DNA of 35,935 nucleotides from Synergistaceae bacterium (GTDB lineage Bacteria; Synergistota; Synergistia; Synergistales; Synergistaceae). Under the pieces are notes generated by a model that worked only from the letters and a program-made list of their open reading frames with translations, ran no database searches and had not been told where the DNA came from. Where the stretch lies: the NCBI GenBank assembly GCA_031268885.1, contig JAIRWR010000036.1:1-35935 (forward strand). Reading direction: 5' to 3'. The translations under genes and the position numbers were made by a program. Of the stretch, positions 2,622 through 35,935 are shown in pieces; the first letter of the stretch is position 1, and each line of letters starts with the position of its first letter.

Positions 2622-3866
2622 TTATGTAAGTATACTCGCGCGCTTTGCTTCTTTGAGCCATTGCGGAAACTCTGACAGCATGCGGGAATAGAGAATCGCG
2701 TTATCGATGCGGTCAATATCATCAAGAGCAAAGAAATTCGCGTTATCGACTTTCCGGCCAGTCATTGTATCCAGATCCTCTAATATGCCATAAGAACTTC
2801 CACCGATGCCGATGAACTGCCAGAAAATCGGATAGGACGACGCGCTCTTAATTAGGTCTTTTACTTGTTTGCCGTTACTTGTTCCGCCGTCCGTTATGCA
2901 GAGAACATACGCGGGCAAGTTGCCATGTTTGTATTCCTCAACTACCTCTTTAATCGCTGGAAAGAGATTTGTTCCGCCTCCGCAGCTGGACATTATCTTC
3001 TTCCAATTCAGGGTTGCTTGTTGATAATTTTTTGTAGTTACGGAATCCATTCGTTTACAACTACTCCCGAAATACCACAGTTCAAATTCACCATTATCAT
3101 CGAATTGCATTGCGAGAGGGACGATCTTGTCGATAACTCGTTGTACTATCCCACTGCTAAAGGATGATGACATCGAACCTGAAATATCAATCAGTAAGGC
3201 CACCTGCGCGATAACTTCAGTTAAATTATGTTTTTCAAGCGAAATCTTTAATGGCTTTGCAAGCGAAACTAACTGCGGCGCTTCTTTTTCGAGACGCTTT
3301 TCAAGCGACACCTTAGTTGGCGCTGGCGGCGAAGACGCGGACGCGGCGGGAGCGACCTCTTCTCCGCCATAATGTTTCAGCAATTCGGACAACCCGCCGT
3401 TGAACCCACTGGCAACAGCATTGAGCCGCCATACGTCTTTACGGTAAATTTCTACAGCGATTACGGCGCGCTCACTCTGGAAGTGTGAACCGTCGAGGTT
3501 GAGCATAAGTGTTTTGCCCTCTTGGGAGACCTTCACGGTGAACTGCTTTATCTGGTTCATCACTCCGCTCCCATCAATGCTCAAAGTAAACACTAACTTC
3601 TGGATTTTATCCGGGAGTTTTGTGAGGTCCACACTATATGACGTGTTAGCGCCGCTTCCGCTTAAAATAATCTCCCGGTTAGGCGATGTAGTCTGATTAA
3701 AAAAGACCATATAGCTCTCATCAGAGAGTTTATCGGAAGAATCTACGCCAAAGCAGCATGAATCATACTCGCTATCGCCTGTTGCCGATATAGAAACCGT
3801 GATTCCACTTGCGGAGTTGAAGTGGTCGTCTATTTTGCATCTAAACCCGCGTTGCATTTCGGTCAT
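2622..3866 (-). CDS. TerD domain - von Willebrand A domain fusion (TerF-like)
   Basis: A 414-residue cytoplasmic protein. Residues about 1-165 are a TerD domain: N-terminus MTEMQRGFRCKI, acidic DSEYDSCCFGVD, and the closing GFNGGLSELLKHYGGEE signature. An Ala/Pro/Ser-rich linker follows (about 170-205). A vWA domain then has a complete MIDAS motif DISGSMSS (Asp near 227) and later ITDGGTSNGKQ. TerD domains bind Ca2+ and belong to tellurite/stress (Ter) systems; the TerD-vWA combination is the TerF arrangement. The start is the inner ATG at 3866, preceded by GGTGGAG at about 8 nt and matching the family N-terminus, rather than the upstream ATG at 3896. It follows the hydrolase gene on the same strand by 66 bp, but its base composition looks more AT-rich than the genes to its right. 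The nearest functional relatives in the window are the kinase/TerY/PP2C genes at 32-35 kb. Confidence 0.85.
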   Translation of the reverse strand: MTEMQRGFRCKIDDHFNSASGITVSISATGDSEYDSCCFGVDSSDKLSDESYMVFFNQTTSPNREIILSGSGANTSYSVDLTKLPDKIQKLVFTLSIDGSGVMNQIKQFTVKVSQEGKTLMLNLDGSHFQSERAVIAVEIYRKDVWRLNAVASGFNGGLSELLKHYGGEEVAPAASASSPPAPTKVSLEKRLEKEAPQLVSLAKPLKISLEKHNLTEVIAQVALLIDISGSMSSSFSSGIVQRVIDKIVPLAMQFDDNGEFELWYFGSSCKRMDSVTTKNYQQATLNWKKIMSSCGGGTNLFPAIKEVVEEYKHGNLPAYVLCITDGGTSNGKQVKDLIKSASSYPIFWQFIGIGGSSYGILEDLDTMTGRKVDNANFFALDDIDRIDNAILYSRMLSEFPQWLKEAKRASILT

Positions 3867-3932
3867 CTGTTTACTCCACCCCTTTGCCGGCATCACCTGA
3901 TCTCGGATCGAATAACGATAATCGGCTATTCC

Positions 3933-8910: not shown

Positions 8911-10074
8911 CTAGAGTCCGGACAGCTCCGACAGGCTGAATATGGGGACTAAGACCGCCATGATGACAAAGCCGACGATCACGCCCATTACGATGATAAT
9001 GATCGGTTCGGCGAGGCTGGACCATTTTTGCATGGAGAGCTGAGCGAACGTCCACAAGTTGACCGCTACCCTTTCGAGGCAGTCCGGCAGATTTCCGCCG
9101 ACCTCTCCGATGCGGACTATTGCTATGGCGTCCTCTGAGAAAGTACCCTGCCGTTCGAGGCTCTGGGAAAAACGATAACCCTTCCGAACCTCTTCGGCTA
9201 GGAATTTTATCCTTCCCTTCTGCGTATCCAGGGGTTCTGAGAGCTCTAATGCCTGGACGAGAGGGATGCCTGATCTGATGAGAGTTGACAGTTGAGAGAA
9301 TATCAGCGACATGGTAAGCATGTTCCGTATTCCTCCAAACAGTGGGATTGAGATTTTCTTTCCCCTCCGCCTCAACTGAATATAGACGAGCAGGCCGATC
9401 AAGATCGCGGGCAAGGCGCCAACCCTCACGGCATACGAGACACTGAGCAGCGCGCGCGTTATGAGTGGAAGTTCCTTGCCCGATGATACGACTATTCCGG
9501 TGAGCTGCGGGACGACGTATGCCAGAAGAAACGCGACTACGCCGACTCCGACTATGAGCATAAAGATAGGGTATGTCAATGCGGACCGGAGCTTCTGCCT
9601 GAGGGAGATCTCGCTCTGCAGGAGTTCGGCGGCCTTGTCGAGGATGTTGGGAAGCGACGACGACCGTTCTCCGGACTCGATCATACCCACCAGAGACTCC
9701 CTGAATACTCCCTGTGTCCTCATGGACTGGGCGAGTGATCTGCCCGATTCCACCAGATCCTTCAACTCTCCGAAGAGGGGTTGAAGACGTTTGTCTCTCG
9801 TCTGACTCTGCAACAGACCAAGCACTTCAGTCATAGAGAGCCCCCCCTGCAGAAAGGCGGACAGCATAGTGCAAAAGAGGTGCTGGTCGGTGAGTTTGAG
9901 CGGCTTCGCGGCGGCTGAGGAAGAGGAGCGCCTGCTCTTCTCAACTACAAAAGAGACCGGAACATAGCCTTCGAGGCTCAGCGACCTCAACAGCTCATCC
10001 TCCGTGTTGGACTCCCTGCGAAGTGTCTTCAGGTCGCCCTTCGAATCGTATGCCTTAATCTTGAAGAATGGCAT
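8911..10074 (-). CDS. gspF: Type II secretion inner-membrane platform protein GspF
   Basis: A 387-residue protein of the GspF/PilC family, the polytopic inner-membrane platform with which the GspE ATPase engages. Two repeated cytoplasmic domains are visible (FCTMLSAFLQGGLSMTEVLG near 70-90 and FSQLSTLIRSGIPLVQALEL near 265-285), each followed by the ESGERSSSLP / RIGEVGGNLP type signature. Membrane segments lie around 165-190, 215-230 and 360-385. It is the last gene of the operon, 8 bp after gspE. The order D-E-F and the neighbouring C, L, M, N and K genes favour T2SS over type IV pilus PilC. Confidence 0.92.
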   Translation of the reverse strand: MPFFKIKAYDSKGDLKTLRRESNTEDELLRSLSLEGYVPVSFVVEKSRRSSSSAAAKPLKLTDQHLFCTMLSAFLQGGLSMTEVLGLLQSQTRDKRLQPLFGELKDLVESGRSLAQSMRTQGVFRESLVGMIESGERSSSLPNILDKAAELLQSEISLRQKLRSALTYPIFMLIVGVGVVAFLLAYVVPQLTGIVVSSGKELPLITRALLSVSYAVRVGALPAILIGLLVYIQLRRRGKKISIPLFGGIRNMLTMSLIFSQLSTLIRSGIPLVQALELSEPLDTQKGRIKFLAEEVRKGYRFSQSLERQGTFSEDAIAIVRIGEVGGNLPDCLERVAVNLWTFAQLSMQKWSSLAEPIIIIVMGVIVGFVIMAVLVPIFSLSELSGL

Positions 10075-10082
10075 GAGACCGG

Positions 10083-11582
10083 CTAAACCTCTCCAACCAC
10101 GCGGATCATCTCGAACGCGGTAGTCTCGCCTGCCGCGACGCTGGCAACTCCGAGATCGATGAGGCTTCTCATTCCATTCGACCTGGCCATACCCTTGAGT
10201 TCTACGGAAGAAACCCCTCTGGAGATAGCATCCGCAATGTCCGGCGTCATGTCGAACTGTTCATAGAGGCCGAACCTTCCCCTGTAACCCGACCCATTGC
10301 AGAACTCGCAGCCTTCTCCCTCGAATTCACGCTCCAGCCCGTATCTCCTCATGGCGGCTGACGCGGGCTTCTCCTTCCTGCATCTGGGGCAGATTTTGCG
10401 CACAAGCCGCTGAGCGACGACACCCAAGAGACAGCCGGATATCAGATATGGGGCTATCCCCATGTCCACCAATCTCGATACCGCGCTGACTGAGTCGTTC
10501 GTATGAAGGGTGGACAGGACCAGATGTCCCGTCAGCGACGACTGGACTCCGATGTGTGCCGTCTCGAAGTCCCTCATCTCGCCTATCATGATTATATCAG
10601 GATCCTGCCTCAATATTGAACGCAACGCGCTGGCGAATGTCACTCCCGCCTTCTCATTCTCCTGTACCTGTCCAACTCCGGGGAGGTCGTATTCTATGGG
10701 GTCCTCAACCGTTATGATATTCACCTCCGGCCGGGCAAGCGCCTGAAGTATGGCGTACAGCGTCGTGCTCTTTCCGGAACCCGTGGGGCCGGTGAGCAGA
10801 ATCATGCCATGAGGATACCGTATCAAGTTTTCGAGTTTAGCCTGCTCTTCCGCGGCCATTCCAAGGTCCTCTAGCGTCAGGAGCCCCCTTGCCTTGTCAA
10901 GGATGCGCATCACCATTCGCTCTCCATGCTGCGTGGGCAATGAGCTGACACGAATGTCGATCGCCCTGTCGCCAAGCGCTATTCCTATTCTCCCATCCTG
11001 CGGGACAAATCTCTCGGCGATGTCCATCTTTGCCATGACCTTTATACGGCTCGTCACAGGCGACTGGTGCCCTTTGGTGAGCTCATACCGGTCGCCTAGC
11101 ACACCGTCCACCCTGTATCTCACAAGCAGCTTGTCCTCAAACGGTTCGAGGTGAATATCCGTCGCGCGATCCTTGACCGCCTCAAGCAACACGCCGTTCA
11201 CCAGCCTTATGACTGGGGCGTCCACCGTGTCGCTCAAGACCTCCTGTCTCGCTAGCTGAGAGAGATCGTCAACGGACTCTATCGCGTTCAGCGTATCCTC
11301 GGCCACGCCGCTCTTAAGATCGTATAGAGAGCGGATCAATCCGTTGATCTGGTTCTCTGGAAAGATCGTCACCTGCGCGGTCTTGCCAGCGCCGACGGCA
11401 AGCAACTGAGCGTCGGGAAGGGAAGAAAGACTCGAAACAGCCACCGTGAGCGTGCCGCCTCGCAGTTCTATCGGAAGGATGCCCTTCTCGCGAAGCGCGT
11501 CTATACTGACGCCTCTGGGGATCAGCTCCATTACCAACTCTGCCGCCGGAAGCCTGTTTGTGCTCGCGATAGTGGTCTCCAT
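10083..11582 (-). CDS. gspE: Type II secretion ATPase GspE
   Basis: A 499-residue secretion ATPase that powers pseudopilus assembly from the cytoplasmic side. An N-terminal MshEN-like domain (about 1-100) precedes the N2 domain with ATDIHLEPFED. The Walker A motif GPTGSGKSTTL is near 265. The Asp box ITVEDPIEYDLPGVGQVQ, Walker B DPDIIMIGEMRD and the His box STLHTND follow. A tetracysteine zinc motif (CPRC...CEFC) lies near 410-440, as in true GspE/PilB. It sits 26 bp after gspD and 8 bp before gspF. All catalytic elements are present. Confidence 0.95.
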   Translation of the reverse strand: METTIASTNRLPAAELVMELIPRGVSIDALREKGILPIELRGGTLTVAVSSLSSLPDAQLLAVGAGKTAQVTIFPENQINGLIRSLYDLKSGVAEDTLNAIESVDDLSQLARQEVLSDTVDAPVIRLVNGVLLEAVKDRATDIHLEPFEDKLLVRYRVDGVLGDRYELTKGHQSPVTSRIKVMAKMDIAERFVPQDGRIGIALGDRAIDIRVSSLPTQHGERMVMRILDKARGLLTLEDLGMAAEEQAKLENLIRYPHGMILLTGPTGSGKSTTLYAILQALARPEVNIITVEDPIEYDLPGVGQVQENEKAGVTFASALRSILRQDPDIIMIGEMRDFETAHIGVQSSLTGHLVLSTLHTNDSVSAVSRLVDMGIAPYLISGCLLGVVAQRLVRKICPRCRKEKPASAAMRRYGLEREFEGEGCEFCNGSGYRGRFGLYEQFDMTPDIADAISRGVSSVELKGMARSNGMRSLIDLGVASVAAGETTAFEMIRVVGEV

Positions 11583-11608
11583 CTCGTCTCCCCTGGTCCG
11601 CTCGCCGG

Positions 11609-13645
11609 CTATTTGGATGGTTCTTCCTGTTTCTCGCCGGCCGGAGGCTCGACCATATTTATTGTCTCGTGGCTGACGCCCTCTTGACTGTTCGACTTGA
11701 TGAATTGCTCGTAGTTATTCATGATCGTCTGGGTTTCGCCGGTACTGAGCCCCTGAGAACCGGTAGTCACTTCTATGGTGGCTTCCGTCGCCTGATTGGG
11801 CGTCTCTATTATCCTGGGAGTGAGAAAGACCATGAGATCAACCTTCTCCCTCTGCCTCTCCTGCTTGGTGAAGAGATTGCCTATAAGGGGAATGTAAGAT
11901 ATGCCCGGCACCCTGTTTTTAAGCGTTCTTTCGACCTCTCTTATCAATCCGCCGAGTATTATAGTCTCATTGTTGCCGACCAGCACGTTGGTTTGAATCA
12001 ACCTCTTTGATGTCACGGGAGTTGTAGAGCCGGAGGTGCTCACGACATCCTCAATGGTCTGTTCGATATCGAGCGCCACCAGGTTTCCGCTTCGTATGTG
12101 CGGGGTGACCTTGAGGATTAGACCGGTGTCCTTGTATTCATAACTGCTCTGTATGGCGGACGGATTGCTCAAGTCCGACGTCTGTCCCCTGAGCTGAGGT
12201 ATGACCTGTCCGACCTGCAGGGAGCTCGACAGGTTGTCCGTGCACATCAGCCTGGGCATGGACAGGACGTTGATGGCGTTGAATGTGTTAAGCATCTTGA
12301 TATACGCGTAGATCAAGCCCATACCGTTGACCGTCGTCACTGTGCCGATGGCGTTCCCGTTGTCGTTGGTCACGGTCTCGGTCGTCCTGGTCATCTCCAT
12401 GAACCACTGCTGAAATTGAGCTGGAACGCCGGCCGATCCAAGCTCGGACATTCCTCCTATCAGGAGGTTGTTCGAGGCGTCGCCGCCCCAGGCCGCCCAA
12501 TCTATGCCGGCGCTGTTCAGCTTGTTCAGGTTGACCTCGGCGATAAGTCCCCGGAGAAGAACCTGTTTGGGCTGAATATCAAGCTCGTCGAGTATGCCGG
12601 AGATGGCGGCGAACTGCTCCTTTGACGCTGTGAGTATGAGGCTGTTGGTCGGCAGGTCGGGCACTACGCTCGCGGGAGTCGCGTTGTTGGGATCGGCCTG
12701 CAGTCTCACCGCGACGGCGAGTATCTGGCTTAACTGCTCGGCGATCGTTTTGGCATCCGCGTTCTTCAGCCTGTATATGTGGAAGTTGTCCACCGTTGAC
12801 GGCACATCCAGTTCGCCCAGTATCTTCTCTACTTTCTCCATCGACCTGCGCTCTCCGACGACTGTTATTTTGCCGCTTCTATCATCGCCTATCGCCATTA
12901 TCCCCGCGAGAATAGAGCCAGGATCCTGAGCGAGCGCGTTCAAGTGGCCTTCTGCCAGTTTCGCGGACGTGTTCGTCATCGTGAATACATTTACTATCCT
13001 GATGCTGTCCGGAACGTCAATCGCCCTTATCAGCGTCGCCGCCTTGTTCAGGAGAACAGCCTTTCCAGCCAGCAGCACTCCGTTTCCGCTGGAGAGAGGA
13101 GCCACAGTGAGCCCCTGAACGCCTATTCTGAGCGGCTCGACGACATACATGGCGTTAACGTAATCAAGCGGGACTATCTGAACAACCAGCTGTTCGCTGG
13201 GAACAATGCTCTGAGGCCCCTTTATGACCTCGTTCGTAGTCGACGGGCCTGTGTTGATCGGCCCCACCTTGGAGTAACTGCCCATCCCTTGAAGCGACAG
13301 CCCGTTCATCTCCAGAATGGAGAGCATAATCTGACGCGCCTCATTAATTGTCACCTGCTTTGGCGACACGACCGATACTGTCCCCCTGACGCCAGGGTTG
13401 ACGACGATGTTCTCTCCGAGCAATTCCGACATGAAACGGACAAAGAGTATTATCTCAAGGTCCTTGAAGTTCAACTGAACCCTGCCCGTCGATCGCATTG
13501 CCCGCGCTGCCCTTACCAGATTCTGTTCGTCATTCGTCTTTTCCTCGCCCGAGATTGCCTCATCGGCTGCCCATAGCGCCACGGCAGATACCGTCATGAG
13601 CAATAAAAGGGTCATCGCAAACACCGCGATCTTTCCTGGCTTCAT
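11609..13645 (-). CDS. gspD: Type II secretion outer-membrane secretin GspD
   Basis: A 678-residue secretin that forms the outer-membrane channel. The start is the ATG at 13645, preceded by AAAGGAG (about 13654-13660) and opening a signal peptide (MKPGKIAVFAMTLLLLMT, cleavage near ALWAADEA); the upstream start at 13687 is rejected. An N0 domain (LNFKDLEIILFVRFMSELLG) and N1-N3 repeats follow. The C-terminal secretin core shows ETIILGGLIRE and VPGISYIPLIGNLFTKQ, ending in LMVFLTPRIIETP. The last about 60 residues are polar (TGSQGLSTGETQ... GEKQEEPSK) and may bind a pilotin. It confirms an outer membrane in this organism. Confidence 0.95.
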   Translation of the reverse strand: MKPGKIAVFAMTLLLLMTVSAVALWAADEAISGEEKTNDEQNLVRAARAMRSTGRVQLNFKDLEIILFVRFMSELLGENIVVNPGVRGTVSVVSPKQVTINEARQIMLSILEMNGLSLQGMGSYSKVGPINTGPSTTNEVIKGPQSIVPSEQLVVQIVPLDYVNAMYVVEPLRIGVQGLTVAPLSSGNGVLLAGKAVLLNKAATLIRAIDVPDSIRIVNVFTMTNTSAKLAEGHLNALAQDPGSILAGIMAIGDDRSGKITVVGERRSMEKVEKILGELDVPSTVDNFHIYRLKNADAKTIAEQLSQILAVAVRLQADPNNATPASVVPDLPTNSLILTASKEQFAAISGILDELDIQPKQVLLRGLIAEVNLNKLNSAGIDWAAWGGDASNNLLIGGMSELGSAGVPAQFQQWFMEMTRTTETVTNDNGNAIGTVTTVNGMGLIYAYIKMLNTFNAINVLSMPRLMCTDNLSSSLQVGQVIPQLRGQTSDLSNPSAIQSSYEYKDTGLILKVTPHIRSGNLVALDIEQTIEDVVSTSGSTTPVTSKRLIQTNVLVGNNETIILGGLIREVERTLKNRVPGISYIPLIGNLFTKQERQREKVDLMVFLTPRIIETPNQATEATIEVTTGSQGLSTGETQTIMNNYEQFIKSNSQEGVSHETINMVEPPAGEKQEEPSK

Positions 13646-13719
13646 CAAGTCCACTCCTTTTGCCGGCCAAGCGGGCTGACCGTACAAAAATAATAAGGGC
13701 AGTCAAACTCACGAGTATC

Positions 13720-13728
13720 ATTATCGCA
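13720..13728 (-). promoter_or_regulatory. Possible extended -10 promoter before gspD
   Basis: In the only large gap of the secretion operon (126 bp between the GspI-like gene and gspD) the minus strand reads TGC-GATAAT, an extended -10 element (GATAAT at 13725-13720). No convincing -35 is seen. It could give gspDEF extra transcription, which would suit the high copy need of secretin and motor. The evidence is weak. Confidence 0.25.
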
Positions 13729-13771
13729 TACTTTACGCGATTCTTTCATTGTCGGGATGTTCAATATGCCG

Positions 13772-14224
13772 TCAGTTTCTCGCCATATCCAGGGACAAGC
13801 CGCCGTCACCGGATCTATTCGCGGCCGCTTCCTCGGAATACGGCAAAAACAGCATTATCGACTTGCCGTCTCTCTTGATCTCGATCTCTCTCCATCTGTG
13901 CGGATCGTTCATAAGCGCGCTCAAGTCGATTGGCTCCTCGCGGCCTCCGAGTCTGAGTCCGTTCATGGCCGACAATCGCTCCAGCCACGAGTTATCCTCC
14001 ATATCTTCGACGTTCCACTCAATATCGCCGCTCTTGCCGAACGTCTTCATCGGATCCAGCATCAACTCCGTCTGCATCTTGTAAGCCTCCTCAATGATCG
14101 CCTCTCTCTCCCGGACCTGTGAAAGCCCCTTTCCGGAGAGCGCGGCGAGCTTCAGCGAGGCGGCGACCACCAGGGACATCACGGCGAGCGAGACAAGTAC
14201 CTCGACCAGAGTAAATCCCTTCAT
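13772..14224 (-). CDS. Type II secretion minor pseudopilin, GspI-like
   Basis: A 150-residue prepilin-type protein. The class III leader is very short (MKG|FTLVEVLVSLAVMSLV), with processing expected after Gly3, then the N-methylated Phe and Glu5. The hydrophobic helix runs to about residue 30. The C-terminal domain is short and charged, without the GspG or GspH signature that I would expect, so GspI is the best fit by size and operon place. Its start overlaps the end of the GspC-like gene by 4 bp (ATGA), indicating translational coupling. It requires a prepilin peptidase that is not encoded in the window. Confidence 0.7.
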   Translation of the reverse strand: MKGFTLVEVLVSLAVMSLVVAASLKLAALSGKGLSQVREREAIIEEAYKMQTELMLDPMKTFGKSGDIEWNVEDMEDNSWLERLSAMNGLRLGGREEPIDLSALMNDPHRWREIEIKRDGKSIMLFLPYSEEAAANRSGDGGLSLDMARN

Positions 14225-15180
14225 TGCACCACGTAGCCGAGCCTTCCTTCCTCCTGGCCCCTGTTCAGCGAAACATCGAACCTCGGGCTGGACATCAGAG
14301 AGTTAATCACATTCACTACATCCATGCCGCCCTTGATCGGAATGTCGTTGATGCCCTTCAGAACGTCCCCTCTCTTCAGACCGAGCCGGTACAGGATACT
14401 GTCGGATCTTATCCTCTGGACTGTCATCTCGCCGTTTTCATTTGGAGCGAGCCTGACCTTTCTGAGCTCGTCCATCGGATTCAGCACGAGCTCATTGACG
14501 AGTTCGCGCGGTATTGTTCCCTCGTTGCCGTTGAAGCCGGCGGCCATAATATCACCCAACGCGAAAGTTCCTCCTTCCGGCTGGGGGGGGACTTGTGCCT
14601 CCGGCGCCTCCCTTGGGGGAGGATTTTTTGTAACCAGCGGATCGTAGAAGGTCAGGTAAAGCGGGTAAAGCTCCTTATCCCTTGCGAGCATCACCTCTCC
14701 CGGCGAGACGCTGTCTAAAACATATCCGTTGAACTCTTGATCGCGAAGCACGAGCGATGTAGCGCTGTCAACGGTTATCCATGCCCCAATATCTGGGAGC
14801 GTTCCGGCGAGGCGAAATTGATCTATCGAAAGCGCTTCCGGGACGACATCGCCGGAGACATCCTCCGATACGGCGCCCGCCGCGTCAATCACGTTGAACG
14901 CGTCGAACTTCATATTGGCCTGTTTGGGAAGGAGGCTCGCGATATTTTGCGTGAACGAACTGGCCGAACGCCCTCCGACGACCTTCGCGAGTGTCTCCTG
15001 GATCCGGACAGCGCGCGCCGTTAAAAGTCCCTCAAATAACAGACAGAGCGTCACAGCGGCCAGGACGCCAGCCAGGATCGAATGCAAGCACCTCGATTGC
15101 GAGAGTTTCGCGATAAAGAGCGTTATACCTCCAGCGTTGGCTTTGAGTGAGTTGTTTCTGTTATTTTTTAGGAGCGGCAT
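14221..15180 (-). CDS. Type II secretion inner-membrane linker protein, GspC-like with PDZ domain
   Basis: A 319-residue single-span protein. A cytoplasmic N-terminus (to about 30) leads into a membrane segment (CLHSILAGVLAAVTLCLLF, about 31-49). A periplasmic homology region follows (DQFRLAGTLPDIGAWITVDS, LRDQEFNGYVLD), then a Pro-rich linker and a C-terminal PDZ domain (IRSDSILYRLGLKRGDVLKG, INDIPIKGGMDVVNVINSLM). This is the GspC plan: it links the inner-membrane platform to the secretin. The ATG lies inside the end of the preceding gene (20-bp overlap) with GGAGGAT upstream. The family call is strong from architecture and context. Confidence 0.85.
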   Translation of the reverse strand: MPLLKNNRNNSLKANAGGITLFIAKLSQSRCLHSILAGVLAAVTLCLLFEGLLTARAVRIQETLAKVVGGRSASSFTQNIASLLPKQANMKFDAFNVIDAAGAVSEDVSGDVVPEALSIDQFRLAGTLPDIGAWITVDSATSLVLRDQEFNGYVLDSVSPGEVMLARDKELYPLYLTFYDPLVTKNPPPREAPEAQVPPQPEGGTFALGDIMAAGFNGNEGTIPRELVNELVLNPMDELRKVRLAPNENGEMTVQRIRSDSILYRLGLKRGDVLKGINDIPIKGGMDVVNVINSLMSSPRFDVSLNRGQEEGRLGYVVQ

Positions 15181-15808
15181 CTTGTTTTATCCTCCATTCT
15201 CCAGGACCACTGGATTCGATATAGCGGCCGATCCCCGAGATCTCACCGCCGAGACGCGGGTTCGAAACCACCATGGATAGGGCCGAATCTATATCCTCCG
15301 GCACCCTTAGCAGAAGAGAACTGCCTATGATGTTCCCACTCGACATGTTATATACAACGCTTCCGGTGACGTTTACATCTCCGCCAATCCGCGCGTTCGA
15401 AGCGGCCAGCAGACTGCCTGACGCGGTCAGATTGAGACTCCCCCCGCCGATGTTCAGTCTTTTGCCGACTATGGTATTGATCTCGCCGTCGCCGAATTCG
15501 ACAGCACAGCTCCCTCCGCGAGCCAGCAGACTCGACCATGGCAGCAGCTTTACGCTGACATTCGAGAGCGACAGTTTGACGAATCTGTTTTCGGCATCGA
15601 CGCCGCTCACGTTAAAAGTGGGCGTAAGATAGCCGTTCTTCTCAATGCTCTGATATGTCACAAATATTCCCCTCCGAGCCGCCTGCAGGCGAATTAGGTC
15701 GAGCGCGTACACTCCAGCGGACCTCCAGGGTCCGAGAAACCACGCGGCGGTTGTAAACGACGCTGCGAATAACACGGCAAAGAGGACGAACCATAATACG
15801 CGTTTCAT
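15161..15808 (-). CDS. Type II secretion protein, GspN-like
   Basis: A 215-residue protein with one N-terminal membrane anchor (VLWFVLFAVLFAASFTTAAW) and a periplasmic beta-rich body. The body has repeated short hydrophobic strands such as VKLSLSNVSVKLLP, GGSLNLTASGSLLA and DVNVTGSVVYN. This fits the GspN-type component of T2SS operons, whose exact role is not settled. It starts one base after the GspM-like gene and overlaps the GspC-like gene by 20 bp. The call rests mainly on topology and operon position; residue-level similarity is moderate. Confidence 0.65.
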   Translation of the reverse strand: MKRVLWFVLFAVLFAASFTTAAWFLGPWRSAGVYALDLIRLQAARRGIFVTYQSIEKNGYLTPTFNVSGVDAENRFVKLSLSNVSVKLLPWSSLLARGGSCAVEFGDGEINTIVGKRLNIGGGSLNLTASGSLLAASNARIGGDVNVTGSVVYNMSSGNIIGSSLLLRVPEDIDSALSMVVSNPRLGGEISGIGRYIESSGPGEWRIKQDAAPKK

Positions 15809-15809
15809 C

Positions 15810-16283
15810 TCAGTTGCTCTCCATCTGAAGACTGATGCCTAAAAGCCGTTCTCCTCCGCTTGGCAGTGCTTTTATCTCCGCCATGCTCACCCTAAGCCCT
15901 CTGCTCTCCATGGTGGTCAGGAGATCCTTCAGCTCATTTCCATAGAGGCGGTCCAACTGAACCGATATCCTGGATTGGTCGGAACGAATCGACATCCTCT
16001 CCCCCATGCCGAGCGCCTGAACAACTCCCGTTATAACTGACATTGGATCCTTCTCGACCGGACGAGGCTGATCTGTCCCCCTCTTGGGGTAAGACCTGTA
16101 AACCGACGCGGCGTTTATAATCCTGTCGCCGGACTCCAGACTCTCGTTCAGACTCACGTTGATATTAGCCGTCCTGTACATCAAGACCCCGGCAGCTGTC
16201 CAGACAGCCAAGGCTAACGCCACAAGGGCGAATAATCTTCTGGAATCCGGTATCTCCCTTATCTCACTGAAATTGATCATCAC
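15810..16283 (-). CDS. Type II secretion protein, GspM-like
   Basis: A 157-residue bitopic protein. After a short cytoplasmic N-terminus comes one membrane span (LFALVALALAVWTAAGVLMY, about 18-37). A short coiled region and a periplasmic domain follow (RISVQLDRLYGNELKDLLTT, then RVSMAEIKALP), which resembles the ferredoxin-like fold of GspM. GspM pairs with GspL at the inner membrane. It overlaps the GspL-like gene by 4 bp and precedes the GspN-like gene by one base. Sequence similarity is too low for a firm symbol; topology and order carry the call. Confidence 0.7.
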   Translation of the reverse strand: MMINFSEIREIPDSRRLFALVALALAVWTAAGVLMYRTANINVSLNESLESGDRIINAASVYRSYPKRGTDQPRPVEKDPMSVITGVVQALGMGERMSIRSDQSRISVQLDRLYGNELKDLLTTMESRGLRVSMAEIKALPSGGERLLGISLQMESN

Positions 16284-17431
16284 TGGTTACCTCTCGATAT
16301 ATTCAAGCTAAATCTCAAATCGCCGCCCGCGGATATCGTATTGATATTGTCCGTTCGGGCGGAAAGTCCCTCGTTCTCAATCAGGCGCTGCAAATTTCGG
16401 ATCGCCTCGTTGCTCTTGGCCGTCCCGATTATATTGGTATTCTCGGTCCCAAATCTCAACGTTTCGATGTAAACGTCCGCCGATGTTCCGATCTTATCCC
16501 AAACCGACGAAACACCGCGCAGCATATCATACAATGTCGTTTCGCCCTCCTGGCCGTTGAGGGAGCGCAGTTTTTCGTTGATGGACCGGAGCGGCTGCGA
16601 CGACGTCTCCCCAAACGAAGCGGAGTATATCGCCTCCATATCGCTGTTGGCCGCGCCCGCTACGGATGAATTGTACGCGTACACGCCCCCCGCGGCAAGC
16701 AGTACAACCGCGCCGACTGCCGCGGCGAACCTGGCGGCCCTCGACAGCGCGCCGACTATCCTCTCCCGCTTTTCGAGGATGCTCGCTCCCCTCCTCGACA
16801 GATCAAGCTGCTCATACGCGGGGCACCGCGCAAGCGTCTTGGAACCGTACTCCTGCGCGTCGGAGTCCGTAACGCCAGCCAGATTGACAGAGAAGACCTT
16901 CTCGACTTCCTTCCCCTGTCCAGAGGCGTACTGAACGGCAAGCTTCTCCTCGGCGTCCTCCGTGCTCTCGCCCGCTGGGACGGTCTTATAAAATCTCGGA
17001 GTCCATTCGTCTAGCCAGACGGTCGTTATGAAGTCCTCGCCCGTCACGATTATAAGCCCTGTGCCATCCACTTCGCCGGCGAAGGCCAGGGCATCCGGCC
17101 AGATCTGCAGAGCCGCGTCTACGCCGATATCAGTCTCCGCAGTGTCGATCTCCTCGCCGAAAAGCAGAAAGACACAACCGGTCGATGATTTCTTCTCGCT
17201 ACTGACGAGAAAGGGGACGATGGATACCCGCTCCGACGCGTCGCCAAGAAGAGGCCTAAAGCGAATGCGGAGCGCCTCTCTAATCTGCGAGATGCCGGAG
17301 AAGGGGTATGAAAAACCCTGAACGGATATCCCCCTGAACGGATAGAGCAAAATTCCGCTTCCGCTTAGAGGAGCCCGCGGAAGACCTTCCCTGTAAAGTT
17401 TGAATTTGTGCGATCCAGTCGTAGGTTTCAT
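16280..17431 (-). CDS. Type II secretion protein, GspL-like
   Basis: A bitopic protein of 383 residues from the ATG at 17431. The large cytoplasmic part (about 1-235) resembles the actin-like GspL domain that holds GspE. A membrane span (FAAAVGAVVLLAAGGVYAYN) and a periplasmic domain with TLRFGT and NEAIRNLQRLIE follow, the latter similar to the ferredoxin-like fold of GspL. The ATG at 17431 comes 5 bp after the stop of the GspK-like gene, with GGAGAGAG upstream. A GTG at 17464 behind GGGGGA is an alternative that would add 11 residues and overlap GspK. Confidence 0.8.
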   Translation of the reverse strand: MKPTTGSHKFKLYREGLPRAPLSGSGILLYPFRGISVQGFSYPFSGISQIREALRIRFRPLLGDASERVSIVPFLVSSEKKSSTGCVFLLFGEEIDTAETDIGVDAALQIWPDALAFAGEVDGTGLIIVTGEDFITTVWLDEWTPRFYKTVPAGESTEDAEEKLAVQYASGQGKEVEKVFSVNLAGVTDSDAQEYGSKTLARCPAYEQLDLSRRGASILEKRERIVGALSRAARFAAAVGAVVLLAAGGVYAYNSSVAGAANSDMEAIYSASFGETSSQPLRSINEKLRSLNGQEGETTLYDMLRGVSSVWDKIGTSADVYIETLRFGTENTNIIGTAKSNEAIRNLQRLIENEGLSARTDNINTISAGGDLRFSLNISRGNQ

Positions 17432-17436
17432 ATGGG

Positions 17437-18354
17437 CTACTCTCTCCAGTTTATTATCTGACACGTATCCCCCGAACGCTTGAGGAAGATCTTGAAATTA
17501 CGCTCGGAGTTAGCGTGTTCCACCTTTATATCTATGGCAAAGTAGTTGCTCTTGTATCCTATGACGTTGTTCAGCCGAGCCGTAGCGGATACCGGAAATC
17601 CAGGTATCCTGATGAGATCCTTGTTATTCTTGATGTTCTCCGCCGCGCGGAACATCATTATCGAATTAATGACCCCTACGTCAATCTGCGGATCAAGAAC
17701 GCTCAGAACCTGCTCTGTCGCGAGATTTATATTTATCTTGTCGTCAGTGTATATAGTAAAGAACGTATCTATCGCGATTCCATCGGAGACATCTTCGTAG
17801 AGGATCCTCGGCGTAACCTCCGGCAGATTCAACAGCTCGCTCATATCACTTATTTTTCTGTTCAGAAAGAAATCCTCCTCGCGGCTGCCAGGCCTTGGAA
17901 CGTTGTCCCTGTCGAGAAAATCAAGAATAACCGGCGACAGCAGAATCGCGTCAAGCCTTGTCCATATCCTGCCCCAGGGATACTCATATTCGTTCCTGAG
18001 AGTCATGCCGTCCGGCAGAAAGATCCCGTTTATGGAAAATTGACTGTCGAGCGGCGTTATCTTTATGATGACGTTCCAATCGTTGAATGAGAGAGACAGC
18101 GGAATTTCGCCGGAGTAGAGCTGCTCCAGCTTAGAATCGTATTCGTTGCCGTCTCCGGCTATCCACCCCGCGACTTTGATACATACGACATCCACGAGAC
18201 TCCTTGAAACCATCGCGAACTCCTCGTCGGATACTCTCCTCATCTCAAGCCTCGCAAACCAAGCCAATGAAGTCGCGGCCGAGAGAATGAGCACCGAAAT
18301 AAACATCACAACGACGAGGATAAACCCCCTAGAACCGCGGCAACCAACGCTCAT
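17437..18354 (-). CDS. Type II secretion minor pseudopilin, GspK-like
   Basis: A 305-residue pseudopilin with a prepilin-type N-terminus (GSRGFILVVVMFISVLIL). Position +5 is Val rather than Glu, which is the hallmark of GspK, the tip subunit. The large C-terminal region contains the GspK saposin-like/helix-hairpin-helix part: INLATEQVLSVLDPQID, and earlier SDMSELLNLPEVTP. GspK caps the pseudopilus in a GspI-J-K tip complex, consistent with GspI-like and GspJ-like genes nearby. Its ATG overlaps the GspJ-like gene by 26 bp. Confidence 0.85.
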   Translation of the reverse strand: MSVGCRGSRGFILVVVMFISVLILSAATSLAWFARLEMRRVSDEEFAMVSRSLVDVVCIKVAGWIAGDGNEYDSKLEQLYSGEIPLSLSFNDWNVIIKITPLDSQFSINGIFLPDGMTLRNEYEYPWGRIWTRLDAILLSPVILDFLDRDNVPRPGSREEDFFLNRKISDMSELLNLPEVTPRILYEDVSDGIAIDTFFTIYTDDKININLATEQVLSVLDPQIDVGVINSIMMFRAAENIKNNKDLIRIPGFPVSATARLNNVIGYKSNYFAIDIKVEHANSERNFKIFLKRSGDTCQIINWRE

Positions 18355-18934
18355 AAGTCACATCCATGCTGCCGTACTCAAACATCACGCGGAACGCGCG
18401 CGGCAATGCGCCAGAATAATCATTCTTCCAGTCCGAACCGCCCAAAACATTGAAGGCAACGCCCGTAACCCCTGGTATGAGCATATTAGCCTCTTCTTGC
18501 TTCAAATCATCTTTCGTTATCGAAACCGGTTGTTTGTCTCCAGACAAAACCCACCGATAAAGGCCTGTTTCGAAGGCATCACTCAGGACGGTCGTCTCGG
18601 GGACTCCATAGACCACGCTCCCCATGGGAACAAATCCGTATGACGGAGTGCTGGTCCACAGAATCAGATAATCGGCATTCCCCTCCAATCTATCGTCATG
18701 CATAACGCGAAACGGCGACTCCATATTGATACGCGCAATCCCCATCACATCCGTGAGCATTCTGTCTACGGCAACTATCTCCCTACTGTCAGCCGCGAAC
18801 GACTTCCTCGCGTTATCAAGGGATCGTACCGTCTTCATTAGAGGAACTATGCCAGTCATGACTATTATACCAGTAATCGCGATTACTACCAGGATCTCGA
18901 CAACTGTGAACGCTTTCTTTTTACTCGTCTTCAA
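18329..18934 (-). CDS. Type II secretion minor pseudopilin, GspJ-like
   Basis: A 201-residue prepilin with a basic leader (MKTSKKKA|FTVVEILVVIAITGII) and Glu at +5. A beta-rich C-terminal domain of GspJ size follows (FVPMGSVVYGVPE; FETGLYRWVLSG; AFRVMFEYGSMDVTYERW). The leader residue before the cleavage site is Ala instead of Gly, tolerated by some prepilin peptidases. It lies 40 bp after the O-antigen-ligase family gene and overlaps GspK. The identity follows from size, domain pattern and order. Confidence 0.75.
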   Translation of the reverse strand: MKTSKKKAFTVVEILVVIAITGIIVMTGIVPLMKTVRSLDNARKSFAADSREIVAVDRMLTDVMGIARINMESPFRVMHDDRLEGNADYLILWTSTPSYGFVPMGSVVYGVPETTVLSDAFETGLYRWVLSGDKQPVSITKDDLKQEEANMLIPGVTGVAFNVLGGSDWKNDYSGALPRAFRVMFEYGSMDVTYERWLPRF

Positions 18935-31948: not shown

Positions 31949-32836
31949 TTATTTTACCATACCGCGGCCTGACTCTGGCACTCGCCGCGCCAAGCTACGC
32001 CCTCCGCCGCGCGGCGTCGTATAAAACAGCACGGATATGTCATCCCCGCAGCCCATCTCGCTAGTCTCTTGGAGCCAATTTTTCAGATTCTTCGCCACTT
32101 CGGCGGCGCCATGTTCCTTGATCATCGCGTAGTATTCGAGGCATGATCTTTCGTACTCAGCGGTGCTGACAAAACTGTTCAGGAAGCCGTCTGTAGAGAG
32201 CATATACGCGTGAGGAACACCCTTGCCCACGTTGCGCCAACCCGTAAGGCACATCACGTTCTTCCACGAATGAACGCGGCTCAGTGAATAAGTCTCGTTT
32301 CCGAGTATCTTGTCGGGAAAGATCACGGGCTTCAAACCGGAGTCGTCGAGAAAGACGATGTTCCCGTCGCCGATCTGAAGTGCGAAAAAAAACTCCGGCG
32401 TCAGCAGCAATCCCGCAAGGGTGCTTCCGTATTTTACGAATATCGATGAACGGTCCTCCCTTCGGTCGGGCTGGCAGGCGCTGCCAAAGTGCCACTTGAG
32501 AACCCGGCGCTTCCACTCCGCCTCTATCGACTTCGCGACGGCAACCTCTCCCTCCCTGTTAAGGAAGGTATACAGGGAGCCTGCTCTGGCCATGTCATTG
32601 CGGCAAAATCTCTCGATGATGTCACAAAACGTGTAGATCGCGATGCTCGATCCTATTTTGCTGTGCGGACACGCTTCACTGCCGTGGCCATCAGCCACCG
32701 CTAGCGCCACGGAACCGCACCGCTCTATTGTCTTGTACCCCCAGCTATCCTGACACTCCTTTCCACTCCGCGCGTGAGAAGCTCCGCGTACGCTCTCTCC
32801 TATAATGCACGGTCTCATGTCAGGCTCTTGGAACAT
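31949..32836 (-). CDS. PP2C-family Ser/Thr protein phosphatase (TerY-P triad)
   Basis: A 295-residue cytoplasmic phosphatase. SHARSGKECQDSWG, then the metal-binding VALAVADGHGSEACPHSKIG (Asp49-Gly-His-Gly) and GDGNIVFLDD, LSTDGFLN and CGDDISVLFY give the full set of PP2C aspartates, so it should be active. It removes phosphate from Ser/Thr, most likely reversing the kinase encoded two genes upstream. Its ATG directly follows the TerY-like stop (TAGATG), indicating translational coupling; an ATG six codons later is possible. The phosphatase/vWA/kinase set is the TerY-P triad known from Ter stress systems. Confidence 0.9.
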   Translation of the reverse strand: MFQEPDMRPCIIGESVRGASHARSGKECQDSWGYKTIERCGSVALAVADGHGSEACPHSKIGSSIAIYTFCDIIERFCRNDMARAGSLYTFLNREGEVAVAKSIEAEWKRRVLKWHFGSACQPDRREDRSSIFVKYGSTLAGLLLTPEFFFALQIGDGNIVFLDDSGLKPVIFPDKILGNETYSLSRVHSWKNVMCLTGWRNVGKGVPHAYMLSTDGFLNSFVSTAEYERSCLEYYAMIKEHGAAEVAKNLKNWLQETSEMGCGDDISVLFYTTPRGGGRSLARRVPESGRGMVK

Positions 32837-33550
32837 CTACCATACATCGCCGGTTACGACTTCATCCGGGCTCGGGACATTGTTGAAGCCGACATACAGG
32901 CGCTCTTCCTCGCCGCCGCTGATCTCCGTCGGGCGGCTCGACGGCGACGACACCATCGATGCCACGGTGGAAGCCCACTTGATCATCTTCGCAAGGGCCG
33001 GCGCGTTTTTAGCTGGCAGGATGAGGTCACTTCTGCCGGTGAACTCGCATAACACGTCGTCGTTCGCGTCCTGCCCTATCGATATGGCAATGCGCACGGA
33101 CTTCCTGCCCCACGGCAGGCTCAGCAATCTTTCCAGCGCGCTCTTGTAATCGTCCGTAGGCTGTCCGTCTGACAGCAGAACCAGCACGGGCGGAAGCGCG
33201 CGGTCCGACATAGGCGGGATCGTAAGTTGCTCCGAGAGCAGATCGAAAGCCATGCCCAGGTTTGTAATGCCATCGGTTTTCAGATCATCCCAACTAAAAT
33301 CCTCGATTCTCACTGGTTCCTCCGTCATCCACTCCGCGCCGGACGAGAATCTCAGAGTCCGCACCATGAGCTGAGCGTTCGGGTTGTCGTCCGCGGCCTC
33401 CCTCATATCCGGAATGGCCTCCTGAATGGCATGATTCACTGTGCTTATCTTTTCGCTCGACATAGAACCGGAGCAATCGACGATCCAGAAAAAGTGCAGA
33501 GGCCTGCTGGCTAATTCGCCGCCCGGCCTTCTCAATTGCGCTACTGTCAC
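32837..33550 (-). CDS. TerY-like von Willebrand A domain protein
   Basis: A 237-residue cytoplasmic vWA protein. The MIDAS metal site is complete: IVDCSGSMSSEKI (Asp25, Ser27, Ser29), the Thr loop DGITNLGMAFD, and VLLSDGQPTDDY. The last about 50 residues are polar. TerY proteins bind metal and serve as adaptors between kinase and phosphatase partners. The start is GTG at 33550 with AAGGAGGG 7 nt upstream. It lies 41 bp after the kinase and touches the PP2C gene. No C-terminal zinc ribbon is seen, unlike some TerY proteins; here the kinase carries one. Confidence 0.88.
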   Translation of the reverse strand: MTVAQLRRPGGELASRPLHFFWIVDCSGSMSSEKISTVNHAIQEAIPDMREAADDNPNAQLMVRTLRFSSGAEWMTEEPVRIEDFSWDDLKTDGITNLGMAFDLLSEQLTIPPMSDRALPPVLVLLSDGQPTDDYKSALERLLSLPWGRKSVRIAISIGQDANDDVLCEFTGRSDLILPAKNAPALAKMIKWASTVASMVSSPSSRPTEISGGEEERLYVGFNNVPSPDEVVTGDVW

Positions 33551-33591
33551 ATTAAAACCCTCCTTAAAACCAACCGGCTGGCGGCATGCCG

Positions 33592-34893
33592 TCAGCGAAA
33601 TTCCCCCGTCGCCTGGCCGAAGTCTATCCTCGCGTCTTTCACAACCGCGGCCGTCCTCCCTATTGGCGCTTGAATCCGCGTCCCATCCATCCTTATGTAA
33701 GTCCAGTTTTCCCCGCTCTCGTTTCTGATGCCCAACAGCTTTGGATTGTTCGGATTCTTGATGACACTCCCCACTACTGTGGACATGTCATAATCGCCAT
33801 ACAAATGGTGAGAAAACAGCTTGGCCTGGCTGGTTATCAGAACCCTGTTCCTGCCGATCACGATCGACGGCGGAACCTGCGCTTGTTTCCGGCAGTTCCA
33901 GCACGAATGGCCAACGTTAAATTGCTCCTTTAATTCATCGTAGAAGACTTCAGCGCCGCAGTTCGGACAGAAGAAGATGCCGCTTATGAGATTAGCGAGG
34001 GCGTCGAGCCACTGTCTCTCCGTAACCCGTTTGTTAGGCTGCTTCAGCCCATCCGTGAACGACTGTATAAACAGTCCTCGCAAGGATTCTGGATATATCT
34101 TCCAGTATATGATGGCATTGTCATGATATCGTTCAACAGGCCTGTTCGTCTCGTCATTTGGGTCAAATATGAAAACCGGCCTGTCGCCGTACAGTTGTCT
34201 CATAGCGTGCAGGTCCAGGCACTTTATCTCGGCCTCCAGTCTTCCATCCAGCGGGTGGTTCAGCATGAACATATAAAACAGGAGGACGGACAGGGAGTAC
34301 AGGTCGGTGTTCCTGGACGGCTTTTCCCCTCTCGTAACAATCTCGGGCGCCATGAAGCGGGGGGTGCCGTAAACAGGGCTGTCGTTCTGATCGTTCACCG
34401 AGACATTGTCGTTGTCGCATATCAGCACATCGCCGGTGTCGGGGTTGAAAAACAGGTTGCCGAAGGAGATGTCCCGGTAGCTGTAGCCCATGCGATGCAG
34501 CTTCTGATAGCCTCGCGTCAAGTTGAATGCCGCCCGGCAGACGGCGTGAAAGGATGGTTCCACCCTGCGCTTCATCATGTCCACTACGCTCCTGTAATTT
34601 CCGGAGCGCAGTTCCATTATGTATCCAAATGGCTCGCCTGGCAGAGTGGATATGATATCTCTGGGCCACAGGAAGGTCGAGTCAGGAGCGCCCTTTGCCA
34701 CGAGATTATCTATGATGTTTTTTTGCGAGGGCGTGGCCATATGTCTGAAAAACCATTTAAGGGCGTATCTTCCGCCCCCGTGCTCGACCTCGTACACTTC
34801 GCCCTGCCCTCCAGCCCCGAGTAACTTTATGATCGCATATCTGTTCCCCGCGTCAGATGTCAGGACAGAGCCAACCTTTAAATTGCCCTCCAT
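33592..34893 (-). CDS. Ser/Thr protein kinase-like protein with zinc ribbon (TerY-P triad)
   Basis: A 433-residue cytoplasmic kinase. The glycine loop GAGGQGEVYEV (26-36) and Lys46 (YALKWF) are intact. The catalytic loop reads YRDISFGN (Asp141, Asn146), Tyr replacing His of HRD. The metal loop is CDNDN (Asp160-Asn-Asp) instead of DFG, and APE is 182-184. The key catalytic residues remain, so activity is likely. After about 320 comes a zinc ribbon (CPNC ... CWNC), then a beta-rich tail of about 85 residues resembling a small recognition domain (VIGRNRVLITSQ...). It is first in the kinase/TerY/PP2C set and follows the repeat-bearing gene by 86 bp. Confidence 0.88.
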   Translation of the reverse strand: MEGNLKVGSVLTSDAGNRYAIIKLLGAGGQGEVYEVEHGGGRYALKWFFRHMATPSQKNIIDNLVAKGAPDSTFLWPRDIISTLPGEPFGYIMELRSGNYRSVVDMMKRRVEPSFHAVCRAAFNLTRGYQKLHRMGYSYRDISFGNLFFNPDTGDVLICDNDNVSVNDQNDSPVYGTPRFMAPEIVTRGEKPSRNTDLYSLSVLLFYMFMLNHPLDGRLEAEIKCLDLHAMRQLYGDRPVFIFDPNDETNRPVERYHDNAIIYWKIYPESLRGLFIQSFTDGLKQPNKRVTERQWLDALANLISGIFFCPNCGAEVFYDELKEQFNVGHSCWNCRKQAQVPPSIVIGRNRVLITSQAKLFSHHLYGDYDMSTVVGSVIKNPNNPKLLGIRNESGENWTYIRMDGTRIQAPIGRTAAVVKDARIDFGQATGEFR

Positions 34894-34979
34894 ATTGGGA
34901 ATCCTCCATCAGTACAAGAGACTGTGAACCTCGTCACAGCCCATCATGGGAAGGCCGCGGCATAGATACCGGCCCAGCT

Positions 34980-35935
34980 TTACGCATCGCGATACTCCGC
35001 GCGCCTTGCGCTTATGTCACACTGTTTACCGAGCGCGCGCTTTCCATAGTACTCGCACCATACAGAGACGGCCCACTCCGCGTAATTTTGGGCTATACCG
35101 TATTCCTCCGTCAAGCGTTTTTCAAAGCGAAACGCAAATGCGCTGTCTATTCTCTGGGAGTCTTCGATCTCAGACGCTATCCCAATCTCGTGCAGAATAG
35201 ACAGCAGGTTTGTCTGTAATCGATGCTGAGGGAATATATCCCGGAGCAGTCCAAAAAACTTTTGGCGGGTCTGGATGGATTCGGAGTAATTCATCAGAAA
35301 CCTGCCAAATCTCTCTTCGAATCGCAATGACTCTTCCTCGTCTTGTTCCAGCCGCCCGCCTCTCTCCGAGAGCAGGGGTCCAGCGGCTGACAGATCCATC
35401 AGCTTATCCTGACTCTTCCAGTCTTCGCGGCGTTCGTCAGCTAAACCTTTAGACGAGGTAAGATTGTCGTAGTAATTATAACTTGCGCCCAGGCATTTAT
35501 AAAATCCATCGCCCAGCATCTCGAATACCTTGGGCTTATTTCGCTTGTCCGCCGCGCCATATATTAGATTATAACAGTAGTCGCCGGGGCGGATCGCAAC
35601 GAAGTCCGTTCCATACCTTCCGTTTATGAACCGCACTATCTCGACCTCGGAGACGACATGACCGAATCCGAACAACCCGACCATCTCTTCGGCAAAGCGT
35701 ACGATCTGTTCGTCAATCGCGCCGGAACTATCAGAACTCTCCTCAAAGTTCTGACCGCCATTATTATTATACTCCGATTCCGAAGAACCCTTGGAAAAAG
35801 CGCCACCGGGTTCGGGATCCGGCACAAGCGGTTTTGGATCTGGCACAGGCGGTTCGGGATCCGGCACAGGCGGTTCGGGGTCCAGCACAAGCGACTTTGT
35901 GTCCGGCATAAGCGGTTCGGGGTCTGGCACAAGCG
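34980..35935 (-). CDS. Ter-associated protein with PDPEP repeat stalk (5' end outside window)
   Basis: The frame is open across the right edge, so the N-terminus is missing; 318 codons are visible. The first about 42 residues are a seven-residue repeat, (L/P)VPDPEP, a rigid stalk. A Ser/Gly/Asn-rich linker follows. Next comes a small domain (IVRFAEEMVGLFGFGHVVSE, then AIRPGDYCYNLIYG and KVFEMLGDGFYKCLG), whose DYCYN and Y-x-x-LG pattern recalls DNA/RNA-system accessory domains. A helical C-terminal region ends YAEWAVSVWCEYYGKRALGK, resembling helical tails seen in Ter-type and other stress systems. I cannot name the family. It is on the same strand as the kinase and likely in its operon. Confidence 0.6.
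   Translation of the reverse strand, partial: LVPDPEPLMPDTKSLVLDPEPPVPDPEPPVPDPKPLVPDPEPGGAFSKGSSESEYNNNGGQNFEESSDSSGAIDEQIVRFAEEMVGLFGFGHVVSEVEIVRFINGRYGTDFVAIRPGDYCYNLIYGAADKRNKPKVFEMLGDGFYKCLGASYNYYDNLTSSKGLADERREDWKSQDKLMDLSAAGPLLSERGGRLEQDEEESLRFEERFGRFLMNYSESIQTRQKFFGLLRDIFPQHRLQTNLLSILHEIGIASEIEDSQRIDSAFAFRFEKRLTEEYGIAQNYAEWAVSVWCEYYGKRALGKQCDISARRAEYRDA
35808..35933 (-). repeat. Six tandem 21-bp repeats coding for PDPEP stalk
   Basis: Six units of exactly 21 bp (35808-35828, 35829-35849, 35850-35870, 35871-35891, 35892-35912, 35913-35933) follow each other without gaps. The unit reads CGGTTCGGGATCCGGCACAG plus one base on the plus strand. Each encodes seven residues such as LVPDPEP. 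The unit at 35892 is the most divergent (MPDTKS). More units probably lie beyond the window edge. Confidence 0.9.

Follow-up and report, generated by a model that had tools for sequence, protein, structure and literature searches.

Does a gene of no obvious family that adjoins a TerY-P triad belong to that system and, if so, what could it contribute? The TerY-P triad consists of a vWA protein, a PP2C-like enzyme and a Ser/Thr kinase with a C-terminal zinc ribbon, and it has been proposed as a metal-sensing phosphorylation switch (PMC11090510); stand-alone TerY-P is reported to protect against phages (PMC7699616, PMC10889362). The targets of the switch are not established in the literature searched. 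The window analysed here, a stretch of 35,935 nucleotides that makes up the whole of contig C55 in a Synergistaceae genome of 2.44 Mb and 136 contigs, closes with four minus-strand genes: a fourth gene, a kinase, a vWA gene and a PP2C gene. A scan with the kinase places Synergistales MAGs as the nearest named relatives of this genome. A first-pass annotation had recognised the triad and had described the gene just upstream as a new element, with a PDPEP stalk, a DYCYN-containing domain and a helical tail, which it could place in no family and suggested might be the sensor or effector of the phospho-switch. We asked what this gene encodes, how far its parts follow the triad in other genomes, and which role its distribution favours.

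Results

The kinase, vWA and PP2C genes

All four open reading frames lie where the first-pass annotation had put them (Table 1), and both the Pfam matches and the published definition (PMC11090510) fit its naming of the three proteins: judged by sequence, these genes are a TerY-P triad, a system of an already known kind. They share with the TerY-P of Type II and III-A CoCoNuTs and of the stand-alone antiphage form the same three proteins, their adjacency, the kinase zinc ribbon and the intact MIDAS, and no CoCoNuT genes were found at the window. PADLOC assigns no TerY-P name, and it names neither the vWA protein nor the PP2C of the window. The reported coupling of the vWA and PP2C genes can be read directly at their junction, where the vWA stop codon TAG (32839-32837) abuts the PP2C ATG (32836-32834).

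Table 1. Features at the right end of the window, with positions, strand and supporting matches
Feature	Position	Strand	Evidence
PP2C phosphatase	31949-32836	(-)	PF13672 E=5e-32; metal-binding residues conserved
TerY-like vWA protein, intact MIDAS	32837-33550	(-)	PF00092 E=3e-6
Ser/Thr kinase with C-terminal zinc ribbon and further C-terminal domain	33592-34893	(-)	PF00069 E=2e-16
Kinase zinc ribbon (C309, C312, C331, C334)	33892..33969	(-)	four Cys in 83/83 relatives
Fourth gene, 3' part, 317 aa readable	34980..35935	(-)	ORF open at contig end
T domain, ~92-104 aa, all-helical	35010..35321	(-)	profile matches; AlphaFold2 pLDDT 94.4
DUF7225 (PF23870), the DYCYN domain	35469..35717	(-)	Pfam E=2.2e-10; second search E=6e-11
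21-bp tandem repeat, PDPEPPV-type linker	35809..35935	(-)	TRF score 147, 6 copies

The active sites of the triad are intact. The MIDAS residues D/S/S/T/D are identical in all 66 vWA proteins compared and the aspartates that serve as metal ligands are kept in at least 60 of 61 PP2C proteins, which bears out the earlier description of both proteins. The same description had called the HRD and DFG motifs of the kinase modified; they do read YRD and DND, but Lys46, Asp141, Asn146 and Asp160 are nevertheless identical in 83 of 83 relatives, as are the four cysteines of the zinc ribbon (a Pfam DZR match at E=0.09, under the cut-off). Because the catalytic residues are invariant among relatives, we take YRD and DND to be family traits and see no sign of a dead kinase; by these residues the enzyme looks active. 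Comparison with the sister species indicates purifying selection on the kinase (dN 0.08, dS 0.83).

Other genes of this genome touch on the same families. A TerD domain fused to a TerF-type vWA (2622-3896, minus strand; PF02342 E=5e-26, PF10138 E=2e-68) lies on the same contig about 28 kb from the triad, with no PF05099 TerB in the genome, and a second PP2C_2 phosphatase (G000:C51:13405-14166, L011) has no obvious kinase or vWA neighbour. At 8911-18934 of the window, on the minus strand, runs a set of genes resembling those of a pilus or type II secretion system, with an ATPase, an inner-membrane protein, a secretin and pseudopilins named by eye.

A fourth gene divided between two contigs

The stalk, DYCYN domain and helical tail of the fourth gene are present as described, in a gene that is incomplete: it enters the contig from the right end, inside a 21-bp repeat that runs to the last base. 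Its missing 5' part, about 200 codons, is found at C17:1-693 of the same genome, where the contig end carries a related repeat whose orientation fits (87% over 70 bp, E=3e-18) and, behind it, a 231-aa open frame starting MNERVKAIYEDIW. In the sister species (G001), whose kinase is 86% identical to that of the window, a single uninterrupted gene of 390 aa (L012:13952-15124) adjoins the triad and secA; it matches the C17 part over its N-terminus (69%) and the C55 part over its C-terminus (74%). From these pieces we infer that the full protein would comprise an N-terminal domain, the PDPEP linker, DUF7225 and the tail domain, in that order. The N-terminal domain is rich in helices, and its single-sequence structure model is poor (pLDDT 53); an identification as TerB, prompted by a short ADG-like motif, found no support (hhalign probability below 1%, with three-sequence profiles).

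The PDPEP and DUF7225 stretch is absent from the G001 orthologue, and it is thus either a lineage-specific insertion or a segment lost in G001. What is conserved in the fourth gene is its C-terminal tail, which is under purifying selection relative to the sister species (dN 0.11, dS 1.00), and neither of the stressed features, the stalk and the DYCYN domain. Nor is the DYCYN domain without a family, since it is DUF7225, at 40.6 bits against a curated cut-off of 27. DUF7225 also occurs without the triad, in a B. subtilis control and in a frame of about 104 aa in another genome (G250), and no phage relatives or phage origin for it appeared in viral contigs or phage records.

The helical tail is a new domain

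A profile and structure search of the fourth protein, the check proposed by the first-pass annotation, thus yielded DUF7225 and left the tail (residues ~205-310), which we call T, with no match in Pfam, NCBIfam, PADLOC or PHROG. When 31 diverse T sequences were compared with Pfam-A, no family was matched by more than one of them; the T profile found nothing at a meaningful E-value among PDB sequences, and Foldseek found nothing at E<=0.001 for the T model in the PDB or in the viral library BFVD, some recombinase helical domains being among the insignificant matches. The model itself, made with AlphaFold2 from a 60-row alignment, is compact, with seven helices (pTM 0.88); among the conserved features of T are an L-x-D-x-F-P, an N-L-L, an R..K pair and G, A and W positions. 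T is therefore a domain new to the libraries of protein families and structures that were searched.

T accompanies the kinase in most loci

No stretch of a six-row T alignment was conserved enough for genome scanning; the kinase served as bait in a scan of GTDB species genomes, which gave 80 loci. Most are from Lachnospiraceae, so the counts that follow are not independent. The vWA gene is present in 68 of these loci and the PP2C gene in 65. A first T profile, drawn from six members of the window's family, detected T in 64 loci at E<1e-4, rising after iteration to 71 across all sources searched, and matched none of the reversed-sequence controls. In 63 of the 80 loci T and kinase are no more than 6 kb apart; 64 loci carry a T, and in 63 of these the copy closest to the kinase shares its strand, with a median gap of 24 bp. 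Where at least 2.5 kb could be read on both sides of the kinase (57 loci), T was present in 50 and absent from 7, so it is a usual but not an obligatory neighbour. T-kinase loci span Synergistales, many Clostridia, a Coriobacteriales MAG and an Ignavibacteriales MAG, and ten loci carry at least two T proteins.

Because these loci had been picked by their kinase, the converse was tested from the T side. Of 393 class-mates of Blautia, 6 carry the kinase; T was found in 4, every one of which belongs to those 6 (hypergeometric ~1e-8, or ~1e-6 minus the centre genome, by hand and with relatedness ignored). A Lachnospiraceae sample of 397 family-mates held 13 genomes with a real T, and in 10 of them triad genes lie in the same stretch or contig as T (for G191, with its kinase in L080); the other three (G852, G869, G964) have no triad gene in the stretch read. 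G950, G913 and G805 gave weak matches (E 1e-4 to 1e-3) that the open reading frames there did not bear out, and were set aside. Twelve triad genomes hold 17 T copies between them; by coordinates, 16 map to the triad locus, and the remaining copy (G193:C132) adjoins a second triad. T is found in 5 of 188 genomes of the window's own phylum, all five with this kinase. Starting from the tail, then, homologues do not routinely occur without the triad; routine occurrence of that kind is what the first-pass annotation had named as evidence against a link.

In two loci (L037, L099) T adjoins the kinase while the sequence read contains neither vWA nor PP2C, an indication that the kinase is the partner of T; two similar loci (L047, L101) end at a contig edge and are uninformative. 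Variants of the triad were also seen: the sister species carries an additional, divergent pair of kinase and vWA genes (L013, G001:C30), with a kinase 38% identical and its own T-ankyrin protein within 3 kb, and some divergent triads (L145, L147, L184, L185) encode a PP2C of 503-542 aa, about 230 aa above the usual length.

T is joined to many different partners

T is N-terminal in 69 of 79 cases, and most T proteins start straight with it, leaving no room for a signal peptide. The module joined to T changes from locus to locus. In most loci it is a BspA-type LRR (LRR_5); elsewhere it is ankyrin (G033, L013), GYF plus LRR, Sel1, HIRAN, a DEAD, UvrD or SNF2 helicase, RNA_pol_A_CTD, YARHG, RCC1, FGE-sulfatase or DUF4261, and in the window DUF7225. 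One genome (G024, L033) fuses T to a BrxL-like ATPase, named by eye from an open reading frame that clusters with BrxL proteins. The T profile matches no kinase, vWA or PP2C open reading frame.

Genomic settings and BREX

Many Lachnospiraceae carry the order kinase, T-LRR, vWA and PP2C, often followed by a TerY_C-domain gene, with rnf genes alongside. BREX genes adjoin in 13 loci, usually in the order BrxL, T-LRR, a 169-aa protein, kinase, vWA and PP2C, and then usually a transglutaminase-like gene. In Blautia massiliensis, PADLOC identifies BrxC, PglX, PglZ and BrxL before T-LRR, the 169-aa protein, the triad and the transglutaminase-like gene, all on one strand. This resembles Type 1 BREX placed ahead of a T-triad cassette, whereas BREX genes are missing from the surroundings of the triad in the window.

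Several features of these neighbourhoods deserve record. The conserved protein of about 169 aa (L085:2115-2624 and 21 other loci of the kinase scan) lies either in the interval from T to the kinase or immediately ahead of the latter, and has no match in Pfam, PADLOC or PHROG. The transglutaminase-like gene after PP2C (for example L087:11919-12956 and L190:12677-13696) is present in 17 of the 80 kinase loci, both BREX-linked triads and some others. On two contigs of G024 (L015 on C19, L033 on C47), BREX-like genes immediately precede the T proteins and the kinase; on C47 the T-BrxL-like fusion sits beside BrxC-like and PAPS-reductase-like genes, an arrangement resembling type 4 BREX, again as named by eye.

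Discussion

Our analysis suggests that the fourth gene of this locus belongs to a family of clients of the TerY-P switch, in which T would dock varied proteins to the kinase and phosphatase; we regard this as the likelier account, with real room for doubt. T would most likely bind the kinase rather than the vWA protein or PP2C and hold its clients within reach of both kinase and phosphatase. Recognition modules (LRR, ankyrin, Sel1, RCC1, GYF, FGE, DUF7225) and DNA-handling enzymes (DEAD, UvrD and SNF2 helicases, the BREX protein BrxL) could in this way be wired into one and the same switch, the kinase phosphorylating the clients, PP2C resetting them, and the vWA protein supplying a metal-dependent step, as proposed for TerY-P (PMC11090510). 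T thus probably plugs recognition and DNA-handling parts, phage-defence proteins included, into the switch. Given the antiphage activity of TerY-P (PMC7699616, PMC10889362) and the BrxL and helicase partners, the output expected would be a stress or phage-defence response, and for the window genome itself such an output is suggested only by analogy.

The earlier proposal of a sensor or effector under the phospho-switch survives in part, in that the tail is linked to the switch. If T proteins were upstream sensors, their repeats would detect a ligand or a phage or stress protein, T would activate the kinase, and the substrates would lie elsewhere. The commonest partners are indeed recognition modules typical of sensors (LRR_5, ankyrin, Sel1, RCC1, FGE), and the T-kinase or kinase-T gene order is tight; yet DEAD, UvrD and SNF2 helicases and BrxL look like effectors or targets, and in some loci several T proteins accompany one kinase, which leaves this reading unlikely, if the most credible of the alternatives. 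A swappable docking adaptor with varied modules fits better than a single dedicated sensor.

We think it improbable that T acts merely as a nucleic-acid-binding or oligomerisation domain of co-operonic DNA-handling proteins, with no kinase contact. Helicases, HIRAN and BrxL act on DNA, and recombinase helical domains turned up among the insignificant structure matches, but protein-binding repeats, not DNA enzymes, are the commonest partners, and T is hardly ever seen in a genome that lacks this kinase, an association that DNA binding by itself would not require. A last reading would make the fourth gene a bystander of the triad, retained by chance or through hitch-hiking, and could appeal to the lineage-specific PDPEP and DUF7225 of the window and to the local character of the gene order beside secA. 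Against this stand the proximity of T to the kinase in most kinase loci, the occurrence of the T-kinase pair in at least two unrelated settings (rnf genes and BREX) and the T-side results (the kinase in 4 of 4 class genomes, the triad in 10 of 13 family genomes), which together make chance very unlikely indeed.

The adaptor logic that we propose for T has precedents in EADs and GAAD (PMC7159879). Like EAD-type adaptors, T is a small helical domain attached to varied effector, sensor and recognition modules and tied to a single core system; in contrast to them, its 31 sequences match no Pfam family. EADs, moreover, pair homotypically, whereas the core triad proteins carry no copy of T; such pairing is unavailable here, so by that test T is not an EAD, and it stands closer to GAAD in logic. 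The same enzyme set, a kinase with zinc ribbon and beta domain together with PP2C and vWA, has been described beside GAP1-N2 GTPase systems (PMC7159879), which differ in that T is present here and no GTPase or GAP1 genes were noted on reading through the T loci. A T-type partner goes unmentioned in those passages of the TerY literature that were searched. The main text of a 2026 BREX survey (PMC12839542) mentions neither PP2C, TerY nor LRR, and a BREX/phospho-switch link is absent from the literature texts searched. Both T as a regular modular partner of the triad and the BREX-T-triad cassette therefore appear undescribed in the literature searched, the main Ter paper lying outside that search.

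As T is absent from Pfam and without a PDB match, proteins that bear it are likely annotated only by their other domain. Gene order, and in one genome also a domain fusion, ties the phospho-switch to BREX, common gut Lachnospiraceae included, and learning what T binds ought to disclose the substrates of the switch as well as its trigger. More tentatively, and with the balance of our judgement still against so broad a statement, T may define a four-part phospho-switch in which a single kinase-phosphatase pair governs interchangeable clients, BrxL and helicases among them; protein phosphorylation would then turn some of the BREX-type defence of gut Firmicutes and Synergistota on or off.
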